A stretch of DNA of 64,000 nucleotides, from NCBI RefSeq assembly GCF_013284245.2, contig NZ_CP085876.1, positions 5,358,001 to 5,422,000 on the forward strand, in the 5' to 3' direction. This DNA comes from Brevibacillus sp. DP1.3A (GTDB lineage Bacteria > Bacillota > Bacilli > Brevibacillales > Brevibacillaceae). A program made the translations under genes and the position numbers. Position 1 is the first letter of the stretch; the number at the start of each line of letters is the position of its first letter. The notes beneath the pieces were generated by a model. The model was not told where the DNA came from, searched no databases, and saw nothing but the letters and a program-made list of their open reading frames with translations. Shown in pieces: positions 7,327 to 25,127 of the stretch.

Positions 7327-7412
7327 GCGAGCTTTGCCATACTGTGCTCAAGCGCTCATTCTCAGAGTCGGTGCGTCAAAACGTGTTGCCAAAACAAAAA
7401 GGAGAATCGCAC

Positions 7413-11993: not shown

Positions 11994-12171
11994 GTTCAGA
12001 AAAAAGAATCCGCTTAAAGGAGATCGATTCTCGCCAGAACCTTCATCCTGCGTAACTCTTGTGCTTTCTGACAGTAGCCTCTCACTCTGTTTGTGCCTGT
12101 GCAATTCATCCTACCTTTTCCTGTATCTGCTTGCCATTTTTCTTTCCTCCATTCATTTTTGGCATGCTTAA

Positions 12172-12283
12172 TAGGCTCATTCCTCCTCGTCATTCGAGTT
12201 GGAATAAGCCTTTGAAAGTTTATCAAGTGTGTTTGTTAAGTTGTTTAGTGTTTGGTTTCTTGTGTATTCTACGACCTTACTAT
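12172..12283 (-). repeat. Immunity-cassette 3' element, copy R1
   Basis: The left-most of eight related elements, downstream of the tandem immunity gene. On the minus strand it carries the AAACTTTCAAAGGCTTATTCC block and its partner GGAATGAGCC, which form a hairpin; the U-tract is weak in this copy. The rest of 11994-12451 holds no convincing gene. Confidence 0.7.
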
Positions 12284-12451
12284 TAAGATGTAAACCCGGT
12301 CTACATATGTGTTAAATGATAGGTTTATTCAGCACTCGGTAACCCTACAAATTATTCCCTTTCCCAAAATGATAAATTATAGAGCTTCAATATCAGCTTG
12401 CTCAGTGAATCCCGAATCTACCCAAATTATATCAAGATTTATTTAGTTACT

Positions 12452-13507
12452 TCATTCAACTAAAGTTGAGTCAAGTAAATTTAAATTTCTATCACTTATA
12501 TCTTCTGGTGAGTTCGTTATGGCGTCTACATACCAATCTGCAAGCGGAATCATCTCTGATCCAGCAATAATATTCTTATCCATAAGGATGATTTTCCCAC
12601 CCCTTTCAAAATATTTAATAATAGGCTCATAAAGATTATAATACTTTCGAGCTTTTAGTACTTTCTGATCTACTAACGCTGATAGTTCTAAGTAATTTAT
12701 ACAAACTGACTTGATTAATTCACTTTCAATTGATTGAATAGCTGGACATACTTCTTCTATCTCTAATGTATATGAATACCCCAGCGCTTCTACAGCATTA
12801 ACAAACGGACTATCGATACTTAAATATAAAAATCGTTCAAAATATGCCGCCCTTCTTAAAAATTCATTTATTAAGATTAAATGGGATTTCTTTTCTGGTT
12901 GTTCAAGCATAAAATTGATAGACGCAATTCTAGTTTGAGCATACTCTAAGTAGCTTGTAATAATCAGTCCGTCCTCATTTTCCCACTTTATTTCCATGTC
13001 TTGTTCTAAATCCAATCGATCTAAATGTTGGTCACTAATGTCATTGGGTTCCTTAATTACCTTGTCACGATAAGTAGGAAGATGGAAGGTAGCCTCACCA
13101 ACAATCATTGAATTTTGACGAATATCAAAACTCCCTCCTCTTTCTAATAATTGTATCAACGGTTCATACAAATCCTTATGTTCTAACGCAACTGGTATCC
13201 CTTTATCTATTAAAACTGACCATTGAAGATAGTATCGACACATATATTTAATAGTACCATTATGAATTTCTTCAAGTTTCGGGCACCATTGAAGGACATC
13301 TATGTCTAACTCTCTATCCATTACATCAAATGCAGAAATAAACGGATACCTTAAAGTCTTTAAAGTAATTGAATATTCATGAATAACACGTGTAGCCCTT
13401 CTTAGGAATTCTTGCACTAGTAAATGATGTGATTTGTAATCCTGGTTACGAATATTATCAAAATCAATCAATGAAATTCTTTCTGCGGCACTTATTAAAT
13501 TTTTCAT
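12452..13507 (-). CDS. Tandem-duplicated immunity-type protein
   Basis: 351 aa from ATG 13507 (a GTG at 13525 is also possible, but the paralog at 21108-21611 aligns from the ATG). The protein is two copies of one domain. The first (about 1-180) has ISLIDFDN, LLVQEFLRRATRV, DLYEPLIQLLERGG and DISDQHLDRLD. The second (about 185-350) has RIASINF, LINEFLRRAAYFE, NLYEPIIKYFERGG and DISDRNLNLLD. The single-domain gene at 21108-21611 shows the same marks (YLCREYLRRATKF, DLFEPAIKLYERGG, DISDETLAALD) and directly follows the full-length toxin. This is therefore probably an orphan immunity protein with a doubled domain. No signal peptide; expected to act in the cytosol. The biochemical function is inferred from context only. 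Confidence 0.7.
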   Translation of the reverse strand: MKNLISAAERISLIDFDNIRNQDYKSHHLLVQEFLRRATRVIHEYSITLKTLRYPFISAFDVMDRELDIDVLQWCPKLEEIHNGTIKYMCRYYLQWSVLIDKGIPVALEHKDLYEPLIQLLERGGSFDIRQNSMIVGEATFHLPTYRDKVIKEPNDISDQHLDRLDLEQDMEIKWENEDGLIITSYLEYAQTRIASINFMLEQPEKKSHLILINEFLRRAAYFERFLYLSIDSPFVNAVEALGYSYTLEIEEVCPAIQSIESELIKSVCINYLELSALVDQKVLKARKYYNLYEPIIKYFERGGKIILMDKNIIAGSEMIPLADWYVDAITNSPEDISDRNLNLLDSTLVE

Positions 13508-13654
13508 TTTGCTATATACTCCCACCGTGGAATATAAACTTACTATTTCTTATTCTGTTTGATTTGAAGCGCTGTAACTTCGCGAGCTTCGGGGCTTAAT
13601 TACGTCATACGTCTATTCCTCAATTACAATTTACACTTTTAAATTCGGGCGAAC

Positions 13655-13745
13655 AAAAAAGCTCACTCCTCCTCATGGTTCAAGTTGGAATACGCCTTGG
13701 GAAGAGTTTCAAGTGTATTTGTCAGGTTTTTGGTTAACTGTTTAA
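13655..13745 (-). repeat. Immunity-cassette 3' element, copy R2
   Basis: Downstream of the 100-aa immunity gene. Minus-strand hairpin of AAGGCGTATTCC with GGAGTGAGC followed by TTTTTT, a usable intrinsic terminator. The distal part diverges from the other copies. Confidence 0.7.
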
Positions 13746-13777
13746 ACTCACAAAATTTCTTGACAGACACTTTTACT

Positions 13778-14080
13778 TCATTCGATATAACTCTCAGCAA
13801 TCTGAATATGTCTTTTCAATTCCAAGTCAGGATACCTATTATCTAGTAAATATAATAATTGGATATACTTCTTACTTTGTAACTTGTACGCCACATCTTC
13901 AAACACTTCACTTAAATAACTAAGCTCTGTCTTTGTACAATCCTTCAAAAAATTTAATGTTAAATCTTCATTCTCACTAAGCACATCGGTCAATTCCATC
14001 CACTTTTGTTCTATTCTCGGATCATTCTCATCTAGTAGTGCTCTTGCACCTAATATTGCTTTTACTTTATCATTGAACAT
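13778..14080 (-). CDS. Orphan immunity candidate (100 aa)
   Basis: 100 aa from ATG 14080 behind TTTGGAGGTATAGAAGA. An acidic, all-helical-looking, soluble protein (LSENEDLTLNFLKDC, LSYLSEVFEDVAYKLQ, DLELKRHIQIAESYIE) of the size and style of small immunity proteins. Directly upstream in the same orientation are 30 codons of a toxin-like C-terminus ending at 14101, themselves next to a fragment of the VgrG linker, so the context is that of a decayed toxin with its surviving immunity gene. No family is named with confidence. Confidence 0.65.
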   Translation of the reverse strand: MFNDKVKAILGARALLDENDPRIEQKWMELTDVLSENEDLTLNFLKDCTKTELSYLSEVFEDVAYKLQSKKYIQLLYLLDNRYPDLELKRHIQIAESYIE

Positions 14081-14100
14081 TCTTCTATACCTCCAAATAA

Positions 14101-14270
14101 TTAGGATTGTATCGAATTATCCGGGAAAACAGTTCCTATTTCACCATTTGTCTTAATTATTCCTACCCGAACTCCATTATAATTACCGAACATACCAACC
14201 AAAGGCATCTAACTTCCCTTTCACCTCAGCCACTTGGTTGTTGACGGCTCTACACGACATGATGGCAGCC
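14101..14270 (-). pseudogene. Collapsed VgrG-toxin gene: linker fragment joined to toxin tail
   Basis: About 14197-14270 (minus) matches the spike-toxin gene at 23151-23222 and encodes AVNNQVAEVKGKLDAFG (intact gene: AFNNQVAEVKGKLDAFG). Immediately after, in a different frame, 14101-14193 reads 30 codons ending VGIIKTNGEIGTVFPD-NSIQS, a plausible nuclease-toxin end, stopping 20 bp before the immunity start. The simplest reading is a large internal deletion that removed the rest of a full-length spike-toxin. Confidence 0.65.
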
Positions 14271-14363
14271 TTTCGGTTTCCTACAATTCCTTTTCAACAG
14301 AACTTCAGTAGTCAATTTCTCTCTTTCATTAAGCTACAAAATCTACTTTCCTTCGGCTGCACA

Positions 14364-14409
14364 TAAAAACAGGTCAATCATGGTGGTATCTGACCATAAA
14401 CGACCTGTT
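14364..14409 (-). terminator. Strong minus-strand terminator hairpin
   Basis: AACAGGTC (14368-14375) pairs with GACCTGTT (14402-14409), with a second inner pair ATGGT/ACCAT. On the minus strand the hairpin is followed by TTTTT. Apart from this hairpin, 14271-14620 shows no gene; around 14515-14565 there is weak similarity to the cloverleaf repeat near 52.7 kb. Confidence 0.65.
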
Positions 14410-14625
14410 CAACGTGACGTTATTAAGTTAAATAGGGTATAAAATTCAAGCATTAATGTGCGTACATCTTAATTCGTGAAAACTTTCTACTGAGAGAACA
14501 AAGATAAACTAAGTAATGATGAAATGAAGTGATTCATTCGACACTGGATGGGACTTTTTGAACAGCCGCGGCTCATACTCTTTCATTCAGTGATTATTTG
14601 AGTTATTGTGGTATAGCAACGGACG

Positions 14626-14722
14626 AAAAAAGAAACCGCCAACGTGGGCGGGTAACTAGCATTGCGGCATTGTTAGTTGTATTGTACGATCTTGTTGTTG
14701 TGCTTATAAACGGGTTTACACG
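14626..14722 (-). repeat. Immunity-cassette 3' element, partial copy R3 with its own terminator
   Basis: 14670-14722 matches the distal part of the element (AACAAGATCGTACAATACAA on the minus strand). The usual hairpin is replaced at 14626-14652 by CCGCC-CACGTT-GGCGG followed by a T-rich run on the minus strand. Confidence 0.6.
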
Positions 14723-14749
14723 AAATTCTAAACAGACCCGGTTAGAAGC

Positions 14750-15202
14750 TCACTTGTTTCCAGTCAGTCTCATATTTTTTTCGTATGTTATAAAACCTTC
14801 AGCCGAAAACCTTTTTTCAAGCATCCTCCTAGCGTCGTATTTACTACAATCCTTTTCTACATAAATTTCATCTTGTAAAAATAAGATAAATATAGAACTA
14901 GATGCATCGTTATTCGCCAAATATAAACCAAATAATTCGTTGTATTGAGTGCTAAAACACAAAGCTAAATACTCTATTTTGAGTTTAAAATTCTCCTTAC
15001 ATTCAATTAATCCCTCATAACTAGCAAATATATTAAAATCATCCAAATCATTAATTCTATTCATTGAGATAAGTGGATTCATACCTCTTATATACAAGCC
15101 TATGACATCACCATCATCTTTCTCAAGGAAAAGTACATGGTCTAATCTCTCATCATCATCCTCATCATGTAAAAAAATAATATTTGAGATTTCTTTTTGC
15201 AC
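14750..15202 (-). CDS. Orphan immunity candidate (150 aa), start uncertain, possible frameshift
   Basis: 150 codons from GTG 15202, encoding an acidic soluble protein (IIFLHDEDDDERLDHVLFLE, SIFILFLQDEIYVEKD, RRMLEKRFSAEGFITYEK). No family recognised. It lies in the immunity array between two cassette elements, which is the basis for the call. The GTG has no ribosome site. An excellent one (TTGAGGAGACGTATAT) precedes an ATG at 15249 in another frame that runs MNNYILSFTKKINHFLCKK into the start of this ORF. A single-base indel in the A-rich stretch near 15190-15200 may have broken the gene. Confidence 0.5.
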   Translation of the reverse strand: MQKEISNIIFLHDEDDDERLDHVLFLEKDDGDVIGLYIRGMNPLISMNRINDLDDFNIFASYEGLIECKENFKLKIEYLALCFSTQYNELFGLYLANNDASSSIFILFLQDEIYVEKDCSKYDARRMLEKRFSAEGFITYEKNMRLTGNK

Positions 15203-15310
15203 AAAAAATGATTAATCTTTTTTGTAAAAGATAAAATGTAATTATTCATATATACGTCTCCTCAACAAACTCATTTAGCTTAGGTATTTTTCCACTTTCA
15301 CTTCATTACG

Positions 15311-15441
15311 AAAAAGGCTTACTCCTCCTCGTTGATGTTGGAATAAGCCTTTGAAAGTTTATCAAGTGTTTGTAAGTTATTTAGTGTTTGGCTTGTTGAT
15401 TGTATTGAACGATCTTATTGTTGGGATTGTAAATGTATTTA
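15311..15441 (-). repeat. Immunity-cassette 3' element, copy R4
   Basis: Follows the pentapeptide-repeat immunity gene. Minus-strand stem AAGGCTTATTCC with GGAGTAAGCC then TTTTT, preceded by the conserved ACTTGATAAACTTTCAAAGG block and the CAATACAA-type distal part. Confidence 0.75.
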
Positions 15442-15478
15442 CAAAAAATATCTTAGTAAACCATTATTAAATAACAAC

Positions 15479-16078
15479 TCACATGCAATTCTCAAAAATC
15501 CACCTTTTTGCTTGTTCTTTATCTAAGGTAATTGGTTCTTCTGGAGTTCCAATATTTATACTAATAATTTTAGCCTTCTCAATTCCCTTAACATTTTTGA
15601 AACTTGCACCCTTTACTAAGACATCTTCAAAAAAAGAATCTTCAATGTTTGCATTATCCAGTTTTGAATTTCTAAAGTCTACACTACTAAAATAACAAAC
15701 ATTTAACTCAGCATTCGAAAGATCAGCCCCCAAAAAAATGGTCTCTGCACTCTCACAATCTGTAAATTTTGAGTTTCTGAGATTAGAGTAACTAAAATCC
15801 GCATATGAAACATAACCTTTATAGAAGTTAGCCCCGTGTAAATAAGTATTTCTAAACGTTGAAGAATATAGCCAAGTTAAAATAAAATTTCCTTTTTCTA
15901 AGTTCATACTATCAAACGAACATTCAATTAACCTAGCTTCTTTAAAGGAAAAATTGGACAAGTCGAGACCTTCCAGATTTATTTCGTCAAGTACCAATTT
16001 CTCCCCCTCCCTCCCCACTGAGTCTAACCATACTTGATGTAATTCAAATTTTTTAATTATACTTTTTTCATCTACCAT
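15479..16078 (-). CDS. Pentapeptide-repeat immunity protein A
   Basis: 199 aa from ATG 16078 (GGGTGATTAGA upstream), 14 bp after the toxin stop at 16093; an upstream in-frame start would overlap the toxin. Residues about 35-165 are successive A(D/N)LXX-type pentapeptides (LEGLDLSNFSFKEA, YLHGANFYKGYVSYADFSYS, ETIFLGADLSNAELNVCYFS), predicting a right-handed quadrilateral beta-helix. Such proteins can mimic nucleic acid and block nucleic-acid enzymes. Its position directly after a PD-(D/E)XK-type toxin makes it the likely cognate immunity protein. A paralog follows the degenerate relative of that toxin at 18445-19068. Confidence 0.75.
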   Translation of the reverse strand: MVDEKSIIKKFELHQVWLDSVGREGEKLVLDEINLEGLDLSNFSFKEARLIECSFDSMNLEKGNFILTWLYSSTFRNTYLHGANFYKGYVSYADFSYSNLRNSKFTDCESAETIFLGADLSNAELNVCYFSSVDFRNSKLDNANIEDSFFEDVLVKGASFKNVKGIEKAKIISINIGTPEEPITLDKEQAKRWIFENCM

Positions 16079-16092
16079 TCTAATCACCCTTT

Positions 16093-17334
16093 TTATGGAT
16101 ACCAAATAATCCTATCTGCAATACCTTCCTTACTCACTGCATCTTTTAGTTGAGCAACATGTTCCGGGATTAGCCCTCTAGTGTCAATTATTATATTGAT
16201 ATCTTTATTTAATTTTTTGTACATATTTTCCAGTGTTCTTTTCACACTAAATGCTCCCTTTTTAGGGTTTGTGTGACCATTAGGATAAGATTCATAACTC
16301 TTAACATCCCAACGTTGCTTAGTAGGTGATGATTCATCATAGAATTCAGCGCCACCAGAATCCCTTTTAATTTTGCCTAGTTCCCCTCTTTCTTCTACAG
16401 CTAAACCTACTTCTCTTTCCTTTTCGCCTTGTTCATCTAAAACATAGCCTCTATCTGGGTCTGTAGCCAAATCATCCAATTCCTTTTGGCTTCTACCCCC
16501 AGTATAATTTCCATCCTTATCATACAGGTTAGGCTTATTAGCTTCACCCGTCCCCTCATCACCATTATCACTACGACGATGATTACCACCACCACCGCCA
16601 TTACCACCAGACAAATCATCATGCCGAACAAAATAAAACCTATATTCACCCGAATAAGCGTCTCTAAAAACAGCAACTCCACCAAGCATGTTCCCCATCT
16701 GCTTGAGAAGCTTTTCAACCTCTTTTTGTAATTCCTCGATCGATTTTGGAAAACTCTTAGCCTGCGTCTTTAGCTTTCCACCCTTTAGTGATGAGCTACT
16801 GTTCCGGTTGTTATCTGCGCCATCGAGAAGTAATCCCGTTCCATTTCCACCGTCTCGTTTGCCACGTTGGGAATCCCCATCTGGACCTATGTCAATTGTC
16901 TGTTTAGCTGCCTGCTTATAGGCAGAAAAAGCCCCACGGCTTACCACTAGCTCGGCGATAACCAAATCTTGCTTGCCTCTATTTCGGCCTTTTTCGTAGC
17001 TTTCTTCGCTAGACCTGGTCCACCTGCCGCCTTGTGTGTCTTCCAACATGTATTGCCCATCTTTTACAAAGGGTTCTATGACATCGCTGTAGACTCCTTT
17101 TGCACCCGACCAAGCCGTTTCTAATACATCTGTTCCTATTTCTCTCGCCGATTTATTCCCCGTGAGCACATCTCCCGCGTAATTCAAGGCACTGGTAGCA
17201 CGATCCGCGACTCCCTTTGCCATGATATTTCGCTCGGTAAGTGATCCTACCTCTTTACCACTTACCCATTCATAAATTTCTTCTGAGCCACCAAACGTTA
17301 CTGTGGTAAACGCAATATCTGCCGTATCAACCAC
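16093..17334 (-). CDS. 5'-truncated polymorphic toxin, PD-(D/E)XK-like C-terminus
   Basis: 413 codons from GTG 17334, without a ribosome site and with a stop just upstream, so expression as it stands is doubtful. The first 300 residues align with the spike-toxin at 21608-24718 from its IYEFVSGEEVGTL segment onward (here IYEWVSGKEVGSL), through the WTRS-ESYxKGxN block and Gly-rich GGNGGGGGNHRR hinge; the whole VgrG spike is missing. The C-terminus carries AEFYDES...QRWDVKSY (about 335-353), the pattern of a PD-(D/E)XK nuclease, ending in IIIDTRGL and IIWYP. It looks like an orphan toxin module that would be active only after recombination onto a spike gene. Cognate immunity: the next gene. Confidence 0.65.
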   Translation of the reverse strand: MVDTADIAFTTVTFGGSEEIYEWVSGKEVGSLTERNIMAKGVADRATSALNYAGDVLTGNKSAREIGTDVLETAWSGAKGVYSDVIEPFVKDGQYMLEDTQGGRWTRSSEESYEKGRNRGKQDLVIAELVVSRGAFSAYKQAAKQTIDIGPDGDSQRGKRDGGNGTGLLLDGADNNRNSSSSLKGGKLKTQAKSFPKSIEELQKEVEKLLKQMGNMLGGVAVFRDAYSGEYRFYFVRHDDLSGGNGGGGGNHRRSDNGDEGTGEANKPNLYDKDGNYTGGRSQKELDDLATDPDRGYVLDEQGEKEREVGLAVEERGELGKIKRDSGGAEFYDESSPTKQRWDVKSYESYPNGHTNPKKGAFSVKRTLENMYKKLNKDINIIIDTRGLIPEHVAQLKDAVSKEGIADRIIWYP

Positions 17335-17446
17335 AGCACTTTACAATGCAATTCCATTTTTTTGACGATGGCACATGGCGTGTACAACCATGTCATCTCC
17401 CTATTCACAGCTCGGGAAATACATATAGTTACTTCCTCTGCATACA

Positions 17447-17590
17447 CAAAAGGCTCATTCCTCCCCTCATTCAAGTTGGAATAAGCCTTTAAAAGTTTAT
17501 CGAGTTTGGTAGTCAAGTTTTTAGTTTTTAGTGTTTAGTTTGTTGATTGTATTGTACAATCTTGTTGTTTGCTTGTACTCTTATTTACAC
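17447..17590 (-). repeat. Immunity-cassette 3' element, copy R5
   Basis: Downstream of the CdiI-like gene. Minus-strand hairpin AAGGCTTATTCC / GGAATGAGCC followed by TTTT. The rest of 17335-17656 holds no gene. Confidence 0.75.
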
Positions 17591-17656
17591 AACATACTTG
17601 GCACACCTGTTCATCACTCTATGTACCAATCATATTTTTACAGATTTAGATTATCT

Positions 17657-18001
17657 CTAATTTGCGCCAAATATCTCTTGTCGAGTCAATAAGTCGTTAC
17701 AAGCAATCTCTAAATACATCACATATGAATGATTGTCAATTATTGTTTGATTAGTCTTACCTCCCAGTCCATAAATAATAAAGAACTCAACCCCCTCTTC
17801 AAAATATCTATCTTCTTCGCGATGATACGAATCAGGAAAATTAAAGCCTCTATAATTTGCAGAGAAACCGTATCCTTCTGCCATGAATTCTAAAGCTTCC
17901 ATAAAATCGTAATCAGAAAGCAAAAAGAAATATTCAATCACCATACTAAAATTCCCTTCTTTATTTGGGAACATTTGCGCATACTCTTCAAAACTTCGCA
18001 T
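17657..18001 (-). CDS. CdiI-type ribonuclease-toxin immunity protein
   Basis: 114 aa from ATG 18001 behind TTGAAGGAGTGTAATAAAT. The pattern EEYAQMFPNKEGNFSMVIEY, DYDFMEALEFMAEGYGF, a Tyr/Phe-rich EGVEFFIIYG strand and YLEIACNDLL resembles the CdiI immunity family for contact-dependent ribonuclease toxins, recalled from family knowledge. It lies 21 bp after a 40-codon remnant of a toxin C-terminus (18023-18145), so it is an orphan whose toxin has been lost. Soluble and acidic. Confidence 0.7.
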   Translation of the reverse strand: MRSFEEYAQMFPNKEGNFSMVIEYFFLLSDYDFMEALEFMAEGYGFSANYRGFNFPDSYHREEDRYFEEGVEFFIIYGLGGKTNQTIIDNHSYVMYLEIACNDLLTRQEIFGAN

Positions 18002-18022
18002 ATTTATTACACTCCTTCAAAT

Positions 18023-18145
18023 TTATAAACTTCTATATTGATTCCAATTTACAACTGGGTAAAAATTATTAATCACCGTTTCGCTTGGATATACCCATCC
18101 ATCAAATGTCAATCCGCGTGCTTCACCTTGTAATATTCTTTGCAT
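18023..18145 (-). pseudogene. Toxin C-terminal remnant in front of the CdiI-like gene
   Basis: 40 codons plus TAA, reading QGEARGLTFDGWVYP then SETVINNFYPVVNWNQYRSL. It stops just before the ribosome site of the immunity gene, exactly where a toxin C-terminus is expected. Upstream the frame is closed by stops. No ribosome site. Probably what is left of the cognate toxin. Confidence 0.55.
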
Positions 18146-18238
18146 TTTTCTTTATTAGTTGTCATCCCTTCTGAATATAGTCTTAACTCCTATCCCTCTA
18201 TCCTTTTGTCTCCTTTATCAATTCATTTGAGGGTATGT

Positions 18239-18372
18239 AAAAAAGCTCATTCCTCCTCATTGTTCAAGTGGAATAAGCCTTTGAAAGTTTATCAAGTGTT
18301 TGAATTGTTTAGGGTTTGGTTTGTTGGTTGTATTGTACGATCTTGTTGTGGGGCTGTAAATGGTTTGCAAAA
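18239..18372 (-). repeat. Immunity-cassette 3' element, copy R6
   Basis: One of the best-preserved copies. Minus strand: CAAGATCGTACAATACAACC, a CAATTCAAACACTTGATAAA block, CTTTCAAAGGCTTATTCC, then GGAATGAGC followed by TTTTTT, a good intrinsic terminator for pentapeptide immunity gene B. The remainder of 18146-18444 holds no gene. Confidence 0.8.
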
Positions 18373-18444
18373 AAATTCTTGACAGCTCCTTCTTCTACGC
18401 TGGGTATCTCATGAGGCTCTTCATGTTTACTTATTAATTGATTC

Positions 18445-19068
18445 TTATTGAGAGATGCTAAAATTTATTAGATTCTTCATCTCATGACTTGATAAACCAA
18501 TTTTCAACTCTCCATTTATTTTAATACTTGAATTTACAAAATGCACCTCATCAAAACCAGTGATATTTAGAAATTTCGTATTTTCAAAGCAACAATTGAT
18601 AAATTTCACATTTTTAAAAGTAGAATTATTAAATGTTGATGATAAAAACTCTGTGTTTTCAAATTCTACTTCTGAAAATGTTGAGTCATCCATATAAGTT
18701 AGTTCAAGTTTAGAATTAGAAACTTTCACATCGAAAAGTTGAGATTCATTAAAAGTAGTTCTAAATGAATCCAAGTTATTGAGAACTGTTGAATTAAAGC
18801 TCGAATAGTCAGCATTACCTTTCCTGAATATATTCCCCGAAAATTCGCACCCATTAAAGGTACTACCACACAGTGATGCTCCACTTAAATATACATTTGA
18901 AAAGTCACATCTGTTGAATACTACTTCTAAAAAACTGCTATTGTTTAAATCATACCCCGTAAACACTATTCCCTCAAAAGAAGTATCTTGATAAATAAGT
19001 TCGCACACTTCTTTTGATAGACCCATTGAAAACTCAGTATATTTTTTAAACTTTGTAAATAAATCCAT
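18445..19068 (-). CDS. Pentapeptide-repeat immunity protein B
   Basis: 207 aa from ATG 19068, with GGGGGTGATAATGA upstream and 13 bp after the toxin pseudogene stop. Pentapeptide repeats fill residues about 30-180 (YDLNNSSFLEVVFNRCDFS, ASLCGSTFNGCEFSG, TYMDDSTFSEVEFENTEFL, SSTFNNSTFKNVKFINCC). It is intact although the upstream toxin carries two frameshifts and a nonsense codon, so it may be kept as protection against other cells' toxin. Paralogous in position and fold to immunity protein A at 15479-16078. Confidence 0.72.
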   Translation of the reverse strand: MDLFTKFKKYTEFSMGLSKEVCELIYQDTSFEGIVFTGYDLNNSSFLEVVFNRCDFSNVYLSGASLCGSTFNGCEFSGNIFRKGNADYSSFNSTVLNNLDSFRTTFNESQLFDVKVSNSKLELTYMDDSTFSEVEFENTEFLSSTFNNSTFKNVKFINCCFENTKFLNITGFDEVHFVNSSIKINGELKIGLSSHEMKNLINFSISQ

Positions 19069-19081
19069 TCATTATCACCCC

Positions 19082-20029
19082 CTAAGGCCATATAACGATT
19101 TTATTCATTAAGCTTTGATTTGTAATTTCTTGCAAAAGTTCTGCTTTGTTTTCGATACTTAAGTTAGAGACATCAAGTATCACATTTTAACCTTCACTTA
19201 GAGATTTATTAATTGACCTCATGGCGCTTGAAAGTTTATAACCACCCTTTTTAGGCGGATAATTTGAATTAAAGGACTTAACATCCCATGCTTGCCCTTT
19301 GGCATCTATGAACTCTGCCTTTCCGGATTGGATCTCTAGTTATCGGTCCATCTAGCTTTCTTGCCTCCTCTAATTCTAACCCAACCCTTGCCTCATGTTT
19401 TCCTTTATCAATATCAATCTGCCTTGTCGAACCTGCATGAGCTGGATCGTGTGCCAAATCGTCCAACTCTGCTTGTGTTCTTCCTCCAGTATAATTTCCA
19501 GCTTCATCATACAGATAAGCCTTACGGTCATTCGAACTACCTTTCCCGTCCCCTTAGTATCTGGCTTATTATTTCCTTGAGGATCATTTTTCTTTGTAGT
19601 ATCAGGCTTACCCTTAGGAGGTATAGAATTATTCGAATTCCCAGAATCTCCGTTCACTACCTTTGGTAAATCCTTCTTATTAGAAGTGTCGAGAGGTTTT
19701 TCAGCATGACCAGTCCCACCATTCCCCGCATCACTATGCCGATAATTACCTCCACGACCGCCTCCATTACCAGGCAAATCGTCATGCCGCATCCAATAAA
19801 CCATAGGTTGACCCGTAACAGCATCTCTGAGAACAACAATTCTTCCATTAAACACTCCAGTCATCTGTTTGAGGAACTTATCAACTTTTTCTTGTAATTC
19901 AATCATCGACTCTGCAAAACTCTTACCATGCGTCTTTAGCTTTCCATCCTTAAGCATGGCGCTCATTACGTCATCGATACTGGAATTAGGCAAAAGGACA
20001 CCTTTCCCTTCCTCTCTAAATCTGAGCAT
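19082..20029 (-). pseudogene. Decayed polymorphic toxin, PD-(D/E)XK-like C-terminus
   Basis: Begins abruptly at about 20018, right beside element R7, at the same GKGVLLPNSSIDD point found inside the spike-toxin gene. It continues through FAESMIELQEKV and WMRHDDLPGNGGGRGG. A frameshift near 19548 leads into YLYDEAGNYTGGRTQAELDD, and a second near 19335 leads into SGKAEFIDAKGQAWDVKSF. An in-frame TAA follows SINKSLSEG, after which NVILDVSNLS...IVIWP runs to the stop at 19082. The E...WDVKSF signature and IWP end match the truncated toxin at 16093-17334, so the two are allelic variants of one nuclease family. Confidence 0.8.
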
Positions 20030-20034
20030 GCATA

Positions 20035-20125
20035 ATAGGCTTATTCTCCTCGTCGTTCAGGTGGAATAAGCCTTTGAAAGTTTATCAAGTGTTCTTGTTA
20101 AGTTTTTTAGTGTTAGGTTTGTTGA
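20035..20125 (-). repeat. Immunity-cassette 3' element, copy R7
   Basis: Downstream of the 225-aa immunity gene and directly abutting the toxin pseudogene. Minus-strand stem AGGCTTATTCC / GGAGAATAAGCC; the U-tract is interrupted (TATT). Confidence 0.72.
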
Positions 20126-20194
20126 ATAATTCTCTTAATACAAGCTCCAAATAAGCAGTAAATAGCATATGGGGCCTAATCAGGCTGTATTCTA

Positions 20195-20872
20195 TTATTT
20201 ACTCAATACTTCCTTAATTCGAATAGACAGATCTGCCTTTTCATCTTCTGTTAATTGTTCACCTACGTCATTTATATCAAACTGTTCCAACTCACTTCTG
20301 ATTTTTACAAACTGTTCATTTTCCTTAATACCATGTCTAATTAGTAATTCTGCAATTGTAGTTTTAACAACAATATTTTCACTAGACGTATTCGTACATT
20401 CCCTTTCGAAACGCTCCATAATATTATCTACAAGCTCACTTACATTTTTTATGTCATTAATAATTACCCCAAAATAATTCCTTACTTCTTTCTCCATTTC
20501 ATAGTAATACCATCTTGTGTATGGACTATAATCAATTGGTATATTATCAATTCCATCTAGTACCATATCTATGCGCTCTAATATGTCCTGATACTCATCT
20601 GGAGATGTTTCAAGTTGAAGCTTTTTTAAATCTATAGAATTTAATGCCTCAACTATTATCTCTTTTGCCTTAATGAATATTTTTGAATGTGTTAAATATA
20701 TTCTTCCTTCTGCAATGTTTACTACAGCCTTCTCCATCTCACCTCTTCTTTGCACACCAAAATATGCATCAGATGTGCGGACAAGCGCTTCAACATCACT
20801 CATCTTTTCGCTTTTAAAATCAAAATATCTTTCATAAAATGCACCAAATAAAGCTTCGTAATTTCGTCTCAT
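20195..20872 (-). CDS. Immunity-type protein, Imm3-like (225 aa)
   Basis: 225 aa from ATG 20872 behind TTAAGGAGATAGATAT. Soluble, helical and acidic, with YEALFGAFYERYFDF, EMEKAVVNIAEGRIYLTHSK and LTEDEKADLSIRIKEVL, reminiscent of the Imm3 family of polymorphic-toxin immunity proteins (family recalled, moderate certainty). It sits between two cassette elements with no toxin remnant directly upstream: element R8 ends within about 25 bp of the start. Orphan immunity gene by context. Confidence 0.6.
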   Translation of the reverse strand: MRRNYEALFGAFYERYFDFKSEKMSDVEALVRTSDAYFGVQRRGEMEKAVVNIAEGRIYLTHSKIFIKAKEIIVEALNSIDLKKLQLETSPDEYQDILERIDMVLDGIDNIPIDYSPYTRWYYYEMEKEVRNYFGVIINDIKNVSELVDNIMERFERECTNTSSENIVVKTTIAELLIRHGIKENEQFVKIRSELEQFDINDVGEQLTEDEKADLSIRIKEVLSK

Positions 20873-20895
20873 ATATCTATCTCCTTAATAGCATG

Positions 20896-21020
20896 TAAAA
20901 CAAGCTCATTCCTACTCATCGTTCAAGTGGGAAAGAGCTTTGAAAGTTTATCAAGTGTTTGAATTGTTTAGTGTTTGGTTTGTTGTATTGTACGATCTTG
21001 TTGCCACATTGTAAACCCAG
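20896..21020 (-). repeat. Immunity-cassette 3' element, copy R8
   Basis: Right-most copy, downstream of the cognate immunity gene of the full-length toxin. Minus strand: CAAGATCGTACAATACAACA, CAAACACTTGATAAACTTTC, AAAGCTCTTTCCC hairpinning with GGAATGAGCTTG. The U-tract is weak (TTGTTTT). Confidence 0.75.
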
Positions 21021-21107
21021 TCTATATTTTTGCATGGGTTACAGGTTGAATGATTGTTTTAATCGTCACTAAGTAGTTCAATCAATATTGAAAAATGTAA
21101 CAATAGT

Positions 21108-21611
21108 TTACTCGGCACAACCATTATCTAGCGCAGCCAAGGTTTCATCACTAATATCTAGTGGTTCCTGTTCATCCCAAGCAACATCTGCAATTATAAT
21201 AGAACTACCATTTATATATATATATCCTTCCCTTCTATAGAAAAAGCCACCTCTTTCATATAGCTTTATTGCTGGCTCAAACAAATCCTTGTTATCCATA
21301 GCAATTGGATTTTTTTCATCAATAAGAGCGCATAATTCAAGATAACTCGTAACGAGAGCTCTATGGTAAGAATTATTTATTTCATTCAGTATTTCAATCA
21401 TCTCAATGTTTTCTTGTGGCTCAGTGATCGAATTTGAAATCATAATAAAAGGAGGTACACAAGTACCTGGATAATCTCTTAAAAATTTGGTTGCTCTTCT
21501 TAAGTACTCTCGACACAAATAACTTTGTGACATGGTTTCCTTTTCTCCAAGACTGCCCCAATCTATTACGGAAATACGTTTAATCGCCTGATTTAAATAT
21601 CCCACATTCAT
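21108..21611 (-). CDS. Cognate immunity protein of the VgrG-linked toxin
   Basis: 167 aa from ATG 21611, overlapping the toxin stop in ATGA with AAGGAG just upstream, so it is translationally coupled. Soluble. Marks are IKRISVIDW, YLCREYLRRATKFLR, NSYHRALVTSYLELCALID, DLFEPAIKLYERGG and DISDETLAALD. The same domain occurs twice in the protein at 12452-13507. A tightly coupled small gene immediately 3' of a polymorphic toxin is the standard position of the specific immunity gene. No biochemical family assigned. Confidence 0.75.
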   Translation of the reverse strand: MNVGYLNQAIKRISVIDWGSLGEKETMSQSYLCREYLRRATKFLRDYPGTCVPPFIMISNSITEPQENIEMIEILNEINNSYHRALVTSYLELCALIDEKNPIAMDNKDLFEPAIKLYERGGFFYRREGYIYINGSSIIIADVAWDEQEPLDISDETLAALDNGCAE

Positions 21612-24600
21612 TCTCCTTTTTCTTTTTCTAGTTGTTTTTCTATCTTACCTTGTTCTTTAAGATTATAGCTAAACGCCCCATCAAACTCACCTTTAGGTTG
21701 AGGATCAGCTGCGTCGTGTGCTCCTGGAGGTTTAGAACCAAAGGAATTCGAGTCAGGATTGAATGCACCAGGATTTTTATATGGATATCCTTGCTTCATA
21801 AGTTTAATTTCCGTAAGCTCATGTTTAATCATTTGTTGTAACCACTCTTTTTGTGATTGTGTTAATTCTTTCTCTTTTTGTGCTTGCTTCCATGCGTAAC
21901 CAAAATCAGCATCTGGAGTAAATTGCCCTACTCTATAGCTTTTATCATTCAATGGTATTTTATGTGAATCAAAAAAGATGTGTTGCTTCACTGCGCTTAT
22001 TTCTTCTACTGATAAACCAGTATTTTTTGCAACCTGTTCAATATCTTCCATACCCACACTTCTAATCTCATCATAGTGCTTTGATGCAAGCCTGTAATTT
22101 GCTTCATCAAATATAGTTTCAAAGGTCGGTTTATAATTATCTACACGGTTATATTTACTCCAATCAATCTTTTCAATTTTAACCGGACCTTTAACCGTCC
22201 CCTCAGTATCCTCTATCTCTCGTTCCCTTTCTTCTTTTTCCTTTCTTTCTCTTTCTTCTTTCTCTTTTTCTTCACGTTCCTTCCTTTCACGCTCTTGTCT
22301 TTCACGCTCTTGTCTTTCCCTCTCTTCCCTTTCTCGCTCTTCCTCCTCTTTTCTACGACGATGATTTCCCCCACCGCCGCCTCCATTATCAGGCAAATCA
22401 TTATTCCGAACCCAATAAACATGAAGTTGACCCGTAGCAGCGTTTCTGAAGACAACAACTCTTCCATCAAACAACTTACCCATCTGCTTGAGGAACTCTT
22501 CAATTTTATCTTTTAATTTAATCATCGACTCTGCAAAACTCTTACCATGCGTCTTTAGCTTTCCATCCTTAAGCATGGCGCTCATTGCGTCGTCGATACT
22601 GGAATTAGGCAAAAGGACACCTTTCCCATTTCCCTCTTGATCACCAGACTTTTTCTTGCCATCCGGCCCATTCAGCTTATCGGCAGTTTTCACCGTCCTC
22701 ATGACGGCTGTACCTGTTCCGGCACTAAGAACGGTTACCGCTACCTCAGCTACCACCATGTCTTTCTTGAACTCATTCTGGCCCTTCGCATAGCTCTCGT
22801 CTTCCGATCTGGTCCACAGACCGCCTTTAATCAAGTTATCTTGATCGTATTGGGCGTCCTTCGCAAATGGATCGAGATACTCGTCGTAAAGCCCTTCTCC
22901 CAGCTTCCCTAAATCTGAAAGGATTTCTTCCGGTGCCTTCTTGCCCGTAAACGTATCTCCCACATAATTGAGCGTGTTGTTTACGCCTTGCTCGATGCCT
23001 TTCACGATGCCATTGCGTTCTCTCAGTGTGCCTACTTCTTCGCCGCTTACAAATTCATATATATCTTGCGTATTCTCTTCTCCCGCAAGTCCTGTCAGCA
23101 GCATGTCCCCGGCATCTACTGCGGTATTCCACAACCCCGCCAATGTATCTCCAAAGGCATCTAACTTCCCTTTTACCTCAGCAACCTGGTTGTTGAAGGC
23201 TCTGCGGGCCATGATGGCAGCCTGACCGTTTTCCTTCAAATCCTGTTCAAACGCACTTAATATCATCGGAAACGCCTGACGAACGGTCGCATCCAGCTTA
23301 ATTTCCTCACTACTGGATTTGTTTTCCTCCAATAGTTCTATCGTATCCGACGCCGTTTTCACGTTCAAGCTCTCAGTCCCGGACAAATATACAGCCGCCC
23401 CACTCAGACTCAGCGCACCACTCGCACTGATATTCACATTCGAGGTACTGTTCAGACTGACGCCTACATCCTTGTTCATCGAGATGTAGAGCATCCCTTC
23501 CTGAGCAGTCATCGTCAGCTCTTTATCCCCAAGCGAGAACTCTTTCCCCTGCGGATTCCCGAACGTCTTCACACCGGGGTCCTGCATTTGCCGATCTTGC
23601 TTCTCGGCGGCCGCTCCTTTGGGCGCATGACGCACGGAGTTCATGACCATACCGTCGTCTTCATCGGCGCTCGGGAAGTACAGCTTTACCTTCGAACCGA
23701 GCTCGGGCATGAGGTACAAGATTTGGTTGCCTTCCGCCGCATACGGGAACCACTGGGCCTTGCTTGGCTCTTGCTTTTTGTCCATGTTTAGATGGAGCTT
23801 GACCTGATTGCGACCAATTTGAATCACTTTTCCGTCGATCGCCGCACCGATGATGGCCTTGTTGTACAGCTTCGATTGCTTGACGGCTTCAGGCACGGCG
23901 CAGACGTAGCTCCACCTCAGGAGTCCCTGCTCCAGCTTTCCACTCACTTTTGTAATGACAAACGTTTGCCCTTCCCGCTGCACCTCATCCCCGATTTGCA
24001 GCAGGTCGTCGTAATCGAAGGTGTACGTCGTGTACTGGTACTCGCTGACGGACGAGGAGCCGTTTGCGGCTTTTTTCATGTACGGTGCGATGGCCCGGTT
24101 GACCTCGTATGGCGATTCTTCTTCCAGCTTGATTTGCTTGCGTCCCTCGGGCATGCCGATCCACAAGCGTACCTTATGCGCACTCAAATCCGGTACGAGG
24201 ACGGCTCCGACATGGGACGCGATTCGTTTTAAAAAAGTCCAGTCTGTCTCCTCGTACTGCATGATGAAGTTACCCTGCTGACGTTCGTCGAAGGCTTGAT
24301 CGATGACATCTCCACCGTGATAGACGGACATGATTTCGTCTACGACATCCCGGTACAACCGATTCACTTCTTGAAACGAACGTATTTTTACGCTCATGTC
24401 CAGCGCATATGTATGAGACACGGCTTTTATCGTGACGTAGTGAATGTCACGTACGACCTTGATCTCCACATGATCCAGCCGCCCCATGAAAATCGGCTGT
24501 TTTTGCCCGCCTTCCACCTTGTACAGCTCGATGGGATCGTGGGTGCCGGCTCGATTGATGATCTCGTCCTCTTTGTCTTCCGGGACAATTCCTGTGATTG

Positions 24601-24718
24601 TGAGCTTGGCATGCGTGCCTGTCTGATGGACGAACTCCAGCTGATCTAGCCGGATCGGTCCATATGGCCAAACGAATTTTATATCCTGGTAGGTCATGAC
24701 GCCGCTTGTACGCTGCAT
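21608..24718 (-). CDS. VgrG/phage gpD-like spike protein with C-terminal toxin
   Basis: 1036 aa from ATG 24718 behind AAGGAGGGGAGAGAAC. Residues 1-285 resemble the gp27-like base of VgrG/late-control-D proteins (YQDIKFVWPYGP, DWTFLKRIASHVGA). About 285-365 is the gp5-type OB fold (GKVIQIGRNQVKLHL, MPELGSKVKLYFPS), and 376-456 a beta-helical needle of repeated short strands. A helical pretoxin region follows (456-780), then a Gly-rich hinge, an uninterrupted Glu/Arg/Lys coiled region (about 786-838) and a separate C-terminal domain (about 856-1036) with VAKNTGLSVEEISAVKQHIF and HELTEIKLMKQG. That domain resembles ones attached to other polymorphic toxins and phage head proteins; its activity is not known to me. 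The protein would form the tip of a contractile injection particle. No tube, sheath or baseplate gene is in the window. Confidence 0.82.
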   Translation of the reverse strand: MQRTSGVMTYQDIKFVWPYGPIRLDQLEFVHQTGTHAKLTITGIVPEDKEDEIINRAGTHDPIELYKVEGGQKQPIFMGRLDHVEIKVVRDIHYVTIKAVSHTYALDMSVKIRSFQEVNRLYRDVVDEIMSVYHGGDVIDQAFDERQQGNFIMQYEETDWTFLKRIASHVGAVLVPDLSAHKVRLWIGMPEGRKQIKLEEESPYEVNRAIAPYMKKAANGSSSVSEYQYTTYTFDYDDLLQIGDEVQREGQTFVITKVSGKLEQGLLRWSYVCAVPEAVKQSKLYNKAIIGAAIDGKVIQIGRNQVKLHLNMDKKQEPSKAQWFPYAAEGNQILYLMPELGSKVKLYFPSADEDDGMVMNSVRHAPKGAAAEKQDRQMQDPGVKTFGNPQGKEFSLGDKELTMTAQEGMLYISMNKDVGVSLNSTSNVNISASGALSLSGAAVYLSGTESLNVKTASDTIELLEENKSSSEEIKLDATVRQAFPMILSAFEQDLKENGQAAIMARRAFNNQVAEVKGKLDAFGDTLAGLWNTAVDAGDMLLTGLAGEENTQDIYEFVSGEEVGTLRERNGIVKGIEQGVNNTLNYVGDTFTGKKAPEEILSDLGKLGEGLYDEYLDPFAKDAQYDQDNLIKGGLWTRSEDESYAKGQNEFKKDMVVAEVAVTVLSAGTGTAVMRTVKTADKLNGPDGKKKSGDQEGNGKGVLLPNSSIDDAMSAMLKDGKLKTHGKSFAESMIKLKDKIEEFLKQMGKLFDGRVVVFRNAATGQLHVYWVRNNDLPDNGGGGGGNHRRRKEEEEREREERERQERERQERERKEREEKEKEERERKEKEEREREIEDTEGTVKGPVKIEKIDWSKYNRVDNYKPTFETIFDEANYRLASKHYDEIRSVGMEDIEQVAKNTGLSVEEISAVKQHIFFDSHKIPLNDKSYRVGQFTPDADFGYAWKQAQKEKELTQSQKEWLQQMIKHELTEIKLMKQGYPYKNPGAFNPDSNSFGSKPPGAHDAADPQPKGEFDGAFSYNLKEQGKIEKQLEKEKGE

Positions 24719-24755
24719 GTTCTCTCCCCTCCTTCTCTAGCAAGCGCGGGAAGCG

Positions 24756-25127
24756 TCAATCCTGACCGTCTTTTTCAATCGTGATGATGCCTGACAGATT
24801 GCAGACTAGCTGCGACTTGCTCAGTAAGGCATGCTCGTTGTCGATGAGCACATCGTGCTTTCCATCTGTCCATTTCGAGGTCGTCTGTGGCACACACAGT
24901 CCTCCTCCTGCCGCTGTGCAAAATCCAAAGCATCCGATATTCACTCCGGGGACGTGATCGGCAACATTCATGACAGGCTTGTCTAGGCTATAAACGCCAT
25001 GGCACAAGGGCAAATTCAATATGCCGGGGTCGGTTCCCTTGCTGCACTTGAGGGTCGCTCCCCGCACGACATATGAGTACTCGGGGCTAAACAACCCCAT
25101 TGCAAGTGCTTGAAGTAACGCTAGCAT
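24756..25127 (-). CDS. PAAR-like (DUF4280-type) spike-tip protein
   Basis: 123 aa from ATG 25127; the frame extends 25 codons upstream but GGGGGATAGGTCTAAAG favours this ATG. YVVRGATLKCSKGTDPG, NVADHVPGVNIGCFGFC and the C-terminal strands are typical of DUF4280 PAAR-like proteins, small conical caps that sharpen VgrG spikes. Several Cys (CSKG, LCHG, GCFGFC) could bind a metal. It lies 37 bp upstream of the spike-toxin and is clearly in the same transcript, as expected of a tip/spike pair. Confidence 0.82.
   Translation of the reverse strand: MLALLQALAMGLFSPEYSYVVRGATLKCSKGTDPGILNLPLCHGVYSLDKPVMNVADHVPGVNIGCFGFCTAAGGGLCVPQTTSKWTDGKHDVLIDNEHALLSKSQLVCNLSGIITIEKDGQD

Follow-up and report, generated by a model that had tools for sequence, protein, structure and literature searches.

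An immunity-gene bank behind a VgrG toxin gene of Brevibacillus sp. DP1.3A, probably built by repeated displacement of toxin ends

In a stretch of 64,000 nucleotides from the genome of Brevibacillus sp. DP1.3A (G000:C1:5358001-5422000; hereafter the window, with positions counted from window base 1), a PAAR gene, a VgrG-toxin fusion gene and eight immunity-type genes lie together on the minus strand, from 25202 to 12452, and each of the eight immunity-type genes is followed by a copy of the same 3' element, which we call T. We assign a probability of about 0.78 to the reading that the locus encodes an antibacterial VgrG effector, used by a contractile-injection-type system in a Gram-positive host, and that its immunity bank was built by repeated displacement. 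Displacement with retained immunity is well supported by the comparison of this locus with its relatives.

A preliminary description of the window had proposed a PAAR-VgrG-toxin operon with eight immunity-type genes in one orientation, and the open reading frame (ORF) list together with Pfam and profile matches bears this out (Table 1). It had further described one immunity gene coupled to the live toxin, one truncated and one broken toxin gene as well as two short toxin-tail remnants in front of other immunity genes, and the same 3' element behind each gene. All of these were found again, whereby the coupled gene overlaps the toxin stop codon, the truncated and the broken toxin join vgrG internally (at VgrG residues ~529 and ~697), and T is present in 8/8 cases, once with another hairpin and once in a more diverged form. 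A VgrG scrap at 14279-14199 covers VgrG residues 492-528. This module anatomy is directly seen.

The comparison was carried out with 26 genomes of the genus, one per species, and thus runs across species, not strains. A VgrG match was obtained in 11 of the 26 genomes, and the vgrG studied here is present in 10 of those, at 11 loci. Three of these loci, the one of B. fortis NRRL NRS-1210 (G013) and both of B. parabrevis NRRL NRS 605 (G018), run off the contig end, so that their bank sizes are minimum values. Across the 11 loci this vgrG carries about eight different toxin tips, as counted by reading, not by a clustering test. The five genomes nearest in vgrG show 85-100% identity to the DP1.3A protein per alignment window up to about residue 480; beyond this the linker is variable, and the tip is at background unless the tip family is common to both. 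One unnamed tip family is common to DP1.3A, G023 and G005. The tips of B. fortis and of the B. parabrevis locus G018b are deaminases (PF14424, E 1.3e-32, scanned in B. fortis only), the tip of B. porteri NRRL B-41110 (G019) is of the EndoU type (PF14436, E 2.5e-7), and the remaining five look unrelated (10 of the 11 tips were scanned). Thus, the expectation of the preliminary description that different strains carry different toxin C-termini on the spike holds, for the same VgrG, across species.

The second expectation, that tips of other genomes match orphan cassettes of this bank, holds for Imm3 and for the EndoU tail with CdiI_4. The counterpart of the Imm3 orphan in B. fortis (69% aa identity) and at G018b of B. 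parabrevis (80% aa identity) serves as immunity gene of the live toxin, and the EndoU tail together with CdiI_4 forms the live vgrG end in B. porteri (90% and 88%). In addition, the second VgrG of B. fortis has an immunity gene that is 98% identical in DNA to the 207-aa pentapeptide gene, and the 100-aa gene has a counterpart of 91% aa identity in G018:C18, located beside an open toxin ORF that ends in the toxin tail found here at 14187-14104. More distant relatives of the 208-aa pentapeptide gene occur in G018c (43%), G004 and G026. Neither identical gene content in all genomes nor immunity genes belonging to families with unrelated roles were seen.

In the case of B. porteri, a block of 1041 bp, in which the EndoU tail is followed by CdiI_4, T and the first part of another vgrG fragment, is 88.8% identical, and the PAAR-vgrG region is 68.4% identical. 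The earlier arrangement is therefore seen elsewhere, since the block is the live vgrG end in B. porteri, and in the window its toxin is truncated and its immunity gene kept. In B. fortis the order is vgrG-deaminase-Imm3-T, and the flank to the right of this T matches the bank's end in the window (376 bp, 79.8%), so that the bank sits between vgrG and a shared right end. Interspecies exchange of this kind is directly seen. In terms of synonymous divergence (dS), the cassette value lies below the vgrG value for CdiI_4 against B. porteri (0.066 vs 2.7), the 207-aa pentapeptide gene against B. fortis (0.046 vs 0.256) and, against B. parabrevis, the 100-aa gene (0.14 vs ~1.2) and Imm3 (0.48 vs 1.2). 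On sequence divergence, these four low values point to transfer. Two Imm3 comparisons, given below, lie above the vgrG value; a disagreement in both directions is what exchange predicts, and it means that cassette and carrier each have a history of their own.

Breakpoints were followed in pairs of cassettes chosen from an identity table to show both behaviours; since the pairs were hand-picked, their numbers of 7 and 6 give no rate. In the 7 pairs whose immunity genes are 90-99% identical, which come from different genomes and mostly different loci, homology gives out after the stop codon and no later than the end of T. Their identity is 77-89% from the stop codon to the end of T (random pairs: mean 80, standard deviation 4.7) and 61-75% downstream of T (random pairs: 71, standard deviation 5.4). 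The upstream joins vary in position, in vgrG or in the linker. Breakpoints around T are directly seen in these pairs, and the swapping of C-termini by recombination, which the preliminary description had put forward, is supported by the differing tips, the live counterparts, the joins at ~529 and ~697 and the loss of homology near T.

These observations would fit the following course of events. DNA with a different toxin end, its immunity gene and T would recombine into the locus, with the upstream join at varying places in vgrG or the linker and the downstream join in or beside T. The incoming toxin would become the spike tip, and the old toxin would be severed, its immunity gene staying one step farther from the spike. 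Since T gives the modules a common end, it would provide homology that is shared between otherwise unrelated cassettes. T probably also makes transcription of the displaced immunity genes independent of the vgrG promoter, and the orphans may then continue to protect the cell.

Table 1. Features of the PAAR-VgrG locus and its immunity bank (window positions; limits given by eye are marked).
Feature	Position	Strand	Basis
PAAR-like spike-tip gene (DUF4280), 148 aa	24756..25202	-	Pfam PF14107, E 1.9e-30
VgrG with C-terminal toxin, 1036 aa	21608..24718	-	GpD and VgrG matches, structure-profile match
Immunity gene coupled to live toxin, 167 aa, overlapping toxin stop codon	21108..21611	-	ORF list, protein comparison
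T element 1: promoter-like site 21015-20987 and terminator hairpin	20897..21045	-	
Orphan Imm3 immunity gene, 225 aa	20195..20872	-	Pfam, E 1.9e-49; live immunity gene in G013, G018
T element 2	20032..20178	-	
Broken VgrG-linker/toxin fragment, frame disrupted, from VgrG residue ~697	19082..20029 (end ~19082, by eye)	-	
Orphan pentapeptide-repeat immunity gene, 207 aa	18445..19068	-	Family scan; B. fortis DNA match
T element 3 (promoter-like site 18360-18332)	18239..18386	-	
EndoU-type toxin remnant, final 40 codons	18023..18145	-	Likeness to EndoU of G019 (PF14436, E 2.5e-7)
Orphan CdiI_4 immunity gene, 114 aa	17657..18001	-	Family match, E 2.9e-11
T element 4	17446..17605	-	
Truncated VgrG-toxin, 413 aa, joined from VgrG residue ~529	16093..17334	-	
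Orphan pentapeptide-repeat immunity gene, 208 aa	15479..16105	-	Family scan
T element 5	15310..15460	-	
Orphan immunity-type gene, 150 aa, without family	14750..15202	-	
T element 6, type C: usual body, different hairpin	14628..14736	-	
VgrG scrap 14279-14199 and toxin tail remnant 14187-14104	14104..14279	-	
Orphan immunity gene, 100 aa	13778..14080	-	91% aa identity to G018:C18
T element 7, more diverged	13655..13790	-	
Orphan double-domain immunity gene, 357 aa	12452..13525	-	Two domains, each resembling the coupled immunity protein
T element 8 (promoter-like site 12294-12266)	12168..12323	-	
Coiled-coil gene ('MAK') remnant; elsewhere the first gene after T in the mobile unit	12046..12137 (limits by eye)	-	

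The body of T is ~100 nt long. It is joined by an intrinsic terminator hairpin, of which types A and B are distinguished; in other copies hairpin C takes its place. The parts of T are a sigma-A-like promoter site, an AC-rich leader of ~50 nt and the intrinsic terminator. Compared with shuffled sequences, the hairpins of 4/4 type A/B copies folded with z values of -3.5 to -9.4, as did one of two type C hairpins (z -5.4). A covariance model of T was built from 19 copies at these vgrG loci, whereby those 19 match by construction and the others do not. With this model 104 matches were obtained in 24 of 39 genomes of the family (taken as Brevibacillaceae), in 3 of 7 genera. At a stricter E value, a further 43 matches were found in 13 of 19 genomes of the genus of Paenibacillus dendritiformis, and T is present in 2 of 3 genomes reached through Paenibacillus loci; some Paenibacillus T regions match Brevibacillus ones with 88-97% DNA identity over 540-999 bp. 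No convincing match for T was found in Rfam, the phage and plasmid collections did not contain T plus its next genes, the phage collection did not contain T alone, and an exact 29-base piece of T was not found on viral contigs. The first 23 nt of some T copies (e.g. 14736-14714) match the terminal repeats of the insertion sequence (IS) family IS256 of this genus, best with 0-1 mismatch to one pattern. The idea that T starts as an IS256 end was dropped; it is tied to no function, and such a transposase has no match in the DP1.3A genome.

An ORF ends just upstream of T in 100 of the 104 family matches, and in 29 of the 30 Paenibacillus matches examined (of 43). Ninety-four of the 100 upstream genes were scanned, excluding six hairpin-only copies behind an S-layer-like gene. 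Among the families listed (25 of 40; the SUKH counts may overlap) these genes belong to Imm3 (7), pentapeptide (7), SMI1_KNR4 (5), CdiI_4 (4), YezG-like (4), SUKH-3 (3), DUF6985 (3) and SUKH-4 (2), with one each for Tdi1_C, Imm32, Barstar, ankyrin and DUF7660 and, of other kinds, one each for FMN_red, ABC_tran, a transposase and a DUF4280 protein. Roughly a third of the genes preceding T have a known immunity family, and many others are nameless. For 71 of the 84 long T copies in the family (105 nt or more), a fragment of VgrG, Rhs or PAAR lies at most 12 kb upstream on the same strand. The other 13 are without such a carrier; several of them adjoin toxin-immunity pairs on short contigs or other carriers, and a few are without a toxin in view (G026:C2, G030, G009 and G013:C15). 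Besides one hairpin-only copy, the DP1.3A genome contains 10 T copies, each directly behind a gene in immunity position.

The hairpin-only copy lies at C1:5357554-5357626, 447-375 bases before window base 1. This form of T stands behind a conserved gene (S-layer-like, by eye) in six genomes (DP1.3A, G013:C11, G019:C60, G006, G002 and G007), and on its 3' side immunity-type genes that differ between species were recognised by eye, as in a second, toxin-free immunity site. These are a 137-aa gene and an Imm3-like gene in DP1.3A, Imm3-like genes in B. fortis and B. porteri, and another type in G006 and G002. T was also noticed at two further toxin loci of DP1.3A. The VgrG-Rhs fusion of the main VgrG cluster (C1:1818760-1829518) has its own downstream row of small genes with T at the end, and C1:4789951-4796891 contains a 1714-aa Rhs-like toxin gene, an immunity-type gene, T, an orphan Rhs end with a small gene, and an IS256-like end. 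On the plus strand beside the bank of the window there are two consecutive long paralogous genes (7344-9413 and 9891-11894; serine-hydrolase-like, by eye), and genes like these were seen past the bank in G023 and in B. formosus NRRL NRS-863 (G012).

The promoter-like sequence of T points into the next module; like the terminator sequence, it is directly seen. In a promoter scan of the minus strand, all three sites scoring 10/12 lie in T elements 1, 3 and 8 and read TTTACA-17-TACAAT or TAGAAT. The pattern is present in 62 of the 84 long copies, compared to a mean of 32.75 in shuffled sequences (range 26-43), and has a spacing of 17-18 in 51 of the 62. An operator-like palindrome beside the -35 box (6 or 7 of 7 matches) occurs in 13 of these 62 copies (21%) versus 2.7% in shuffles, which is suggestive. 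Since the Imm3 gene begins ~25 nt behind the hairpin of T element 1, a promoter within T would be a natural route to its expression.

Behind some T copies a longer gene order was found, consisting of a coiled-coil gene, a prohead-protease-like gene (PF04586), an HGGxSTG gene (NF041373; its small-terminase model match is below the cut-off), a serine recombinase gene (PF00239/PF07508), a Rep_trans-like gene (PF02486, E 3.4e-6, below the cut-off), an IS110 transposase gene (NF033542, 208 bits), a toxin end, an immunity gene and again T. In G018:C17 such a T-to-T unit is present, with T and the next two genes repeated at 98.4% identity over 1272 bp. The VgrG-Rhs banks of two further genomes contain the unit as well, partly decayed in G005 and only as a part in G002; related pieces occur in other genera. 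Within 400 nt after T, vgrG-like sequence follows in 21 of the 104 copies, sequence like the first gene of the unit in 22 (2 of them have both) and neither in 63. The distal end of the bank in the window keeps a remnant of the unit's first gene, the coiled-coil gene, and neither a serine recombinase nor an IS110 gene, as found beside some T copies elsewhere, was found in the window. The unit that is flanked by T copies and holds serine recombinase, Rep_trans and IS110 genes is a candidate vehicle. In a wider and rather doubtful view, T would be the shared end of a mobile toxin-cassette family in Brevibacillaceae and a Paenibacillus genus, whose T-to-T units could enter at any T that follows a polymorphic-toxin gene, be it of the VgrG, Rhs, PAAR or secreted kind, and bring along a new immunity gene with its own promoter and terminator, a bank being left after loss of the core. 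At G005:C1:1468276-1482000, two copies of the main-cluster VgrG flank the bank that holds the decayed unit, and in front of the second copy stands a piece of the VgrG-upstream gene, as after insertion of a whole block.

The delivery machine would be encoded elsewhere in the genome. The cluster C1:1797999-1834629 contains three more VgrG genes, one of them fused to Rhs, a gene for a Hcp/TssD-like protein (weak, E 0.0012, below the cut-off), and kinase-, FHA- and Hsp70-like genes, which were partly named by eye. A 722-aa gene of this cluster is present in exactly the 11 of 26 genomes that have any VgrG match. Naming its product as TssC-like was based on inspection by eye, had no library support and was not kept. 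The profile of the window's VgrG matches the solved chains 7aef_q (E 1.8e-6) and 7b5h_AJ (E 2.3e-6), over ~150 positions only. These chains, named SerB and All3320 in the structure table, we take to be the spikes of an extracellular contractile injection system (eCIS) and of a thylakoid-anchored contractile injection system. The GpD and VgrG matches of the 1036-aa protein itself fall below the curated cut-offs. Overall, we infer a machine of the contractile injection type, which may be a type VI secretion system, an eCIS or something else; no library names its candidate sheath.

In the live tip, which is presumed to be toxic, the residues H-E-x-x-E and A-H-D are conserved among five relatives. 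A further relative (46% identity) lies on a contig of a viral collection (IMG/VR UViG_3300002854_000177). Relatives of the coupled 167-aa gene share loci with relatives of the tip in G023, G005, G007 and G002. The 357-aa gene resembles the coupled immunity protein twice over (32-35% identity), and both have counterparts elsewhere as one family. The two pentapeptide genes of the bank are distantly related to each other. No family was found for the 167-, 150-, 100- and 357-aa genes in individual scans (with Pfam alone for the 100-aa gene and NCBIfam alone for the 357-aa gene), and the 150-aa gene (15202-14750) has no relative in the regions searched.

Several results weigh against an exchange-built bank on a contractile injection spike. 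The 722-aa candidate sheath has no match that names it, in any library or among solved sequences, and for the live tip (~last 170 aa) no match was obtained in Pfam, among solved sequences or in a fold search, the last of these having used a four-sequence model with a mean predicted local distance difference test (pLDDT) score of 79.5. The type C hairpin of the window copy 14736-14628 folds no better than shuffles (z -0.94). The general promoter consensus score of T is in only modest excess over shuffles (8.5 vs 7.8 of 12), promoter-like sites (39 vs 37.7 expected) and terminator-like sites (8 vs 8.0) occur in the whole locus in chance numbers, and since the promoter-like site lies within conserved sequence, its conservation by itself does not prove a promoter. 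Concerning breakpoints, the identity of the first of the 7 pairs starts to fall between the stop codon and T, not inside T, and the 6 contrast pairs are mostly homologous through T, one of them breaking only inside T. Furthermore, dS of Imm3 exceeds that of vgrG towards B. fortis (1.06 vs 0.256) and G007 (0.82 vs 0.269), and thus these copies are not recent transfers between these genomes; dS values above 1 are near saturation. Finally, the CdiI_4 orphan has an altered C-terminus compared to the 130-aa live copy of B. porteri and looks damaged, and its pair shows a ratio of nonsynonymous to synonymous divergence (dN/dS) of 1.14.

The state of CdiI_4 would also agree with a bank of decaying debris, i.e. 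leftover modules with functionless orphan immunity genes, as would the former toxins of the window, which are truncated, broken, reduced to tails or gone, and the 150-aa orphan without relative. However, dN/dS is 0.15-0.41 in the ten other of the 11 pairs (six with an orphan of this bank; one with saturated dS). This argument is weak, since dN/dS spans the whole time since divergence and not the orphan time alone, and we consider the debris explanation unlikely. It might alternatively be that the bank grew by tandem duplication of one immunity gene and later divergence. The doubled domain of the 357-aa gene and the distant relationship of the two pentapeptide genes would be in line with this, but Imm3, CdiI_4, the pentapeptide family and the coupled family are mutually unrelated, and the homologous bank members are only 24-35% alike and have closer relatives in other genomes. 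Because the immunity genes belong to unrelated families, tandem duplication is rejected as the main route and is very improbable.

Two further explanations concern T itself. That T is an ordinary dispersed terminator which happens to follow immunity genes could account for the hairpin-only version behind the S-layer-like gene, for the 13 of 84 long copies without carrier upstream and for three upstream genes in non-immunity families. We give it hardly any credence, as the 10 own copies stand directly behind genes in immunity position, 71 of the 84 long copies are near VgrG, Rhs or PAAR sequences, and a phylum sample yielded T in only 2 of 398 genomes, one of them DP1.3A, though the stricter filters also lost 4 of its 11 own copies. 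The other possibility, to which we give a rather low but not negligible probability, is that no homologous exchange took place and a dedicated, circular, T-bounded mobile unit, whose genes comprise a serine recombinase, Rep_trans, IS110, a toxin and its immunity gene, inserts at T, loss of its core leaving immunity-T repeats. The T-to-T unit of G018:C17, the decayed and partial units of G005 and G002, the pieces in other genera and the coiled-coil gene remnant at the distal end of this bank speak for such a vehicle. On the other hand, only the last of the 8 T copies of the window precedes a remnant of the mobile unit, two copies directly precede vgrG sequence and a third precedes a vgrG scrap ~350 nt on. 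Moreover, the analysis yielded no junction product or exact boundary, and the T copies are ~80% alike, which resembles a region of homology more than a strict attachment site. The unit may insert by itself or be carried by homologous recombination.

If displacement is the correct reading, it extends effector displacement with immunity memory to the VgrG of Gram-positive bacteria, and T could explain both the movement of unrelated toxin-immunity pairs between carriers and the continued expression of displaced immunity genes. T can also serve as a search handle, whereby the 104 matches in one family led to many unnamed genes in immunity position. The preliminary description had regarded an immunity bank on a VgrG spike as little described. 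This stands insofar as searches of the open-access literature of PubMed Central listed no paper whose title and abstract opening describe T or a Brevibacillus VgrG immunity bank; it does not stand for such banks as a type, which are known from the type VI secretion system (T6SS), from contact-dependent growth inhibition (CDI) and Rhs systems and from the type VII secretion system (T7SS), and B. brevis already appears in Zhang et al. (2012).

The T6SS arrays of Vibrio cholerae likewise consist of an effector and immunity gene followed by orphans that resemble the pairs of other strains, and are explained by displacements in sequence, the old immunity gene being retained each time (Kirchberger et al., 2017, PMC5361080). 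Recombination is described there as proceeding without specific integration sites and with no evidence of an integrase; unlike this, the modules of the window end in a conserved promoter-terminator-like element, near which 3' breakpoints lie in the chosen pairs, and the host is Gram-positive. The orphan CdiA-CT/CdiI and Rhs-CT/RhsI modules are similar in that toxin-end fragments, each with an immunity gene, lie downstream of a full-length gene and are exchanged between bacteria (Poole et al., 2011, PMC3150448). Here, however, the carrier is VgrG, CdiI_4 is the only immunity family in common with CDI, and no passage on a terminator, an intergenic region or an insertion sequence was found in PMC3150448, so that no shared 3' element is seen there. 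The esaG arrays of the Staphylococcus aureus T7SS are also Gram-positive and have recombining homology blocks that include the downstream intergenic region (PMC9484751); these are paralogues of one family, whereas in the case of T unrelated families have the downstream element in common, across carriers and genera. Polyimmunity loci resemble the bank in their tandem unrelated immunity genes, and B. brevis is named among the soil bacilli with an excess of immunity proteins; such loci are described as usually being without toxin genes or cassettes, whereas here a live VgrG toxin is attached and each gene has its T (Zhang et al., 2012, PMC3482391). The bank may also be compared with an integron-like cassette array: its genes end in a common 3' element, and serine recombinase and IS110 genes, whose products might act on such an element, were found beside some T copies outside the window. 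With eCIS there is, apart from the profile match to 7aef_q and 7b5h_AJ, the likeness that antibacterial toxins and some immunity genes lie beside the injection system loci, Firmicutes included; in that study no immunity genes were found beside most of the antibacterial toxins, in contrast to the bank of eight here (Geller et al., 2021, PMC8213781). Overall, displacement with kept immunity is already known from the T6SS of V. cholerae and from CDI and Rhs systems; what was not expected is T, together with its connection to a possible mobile unit.

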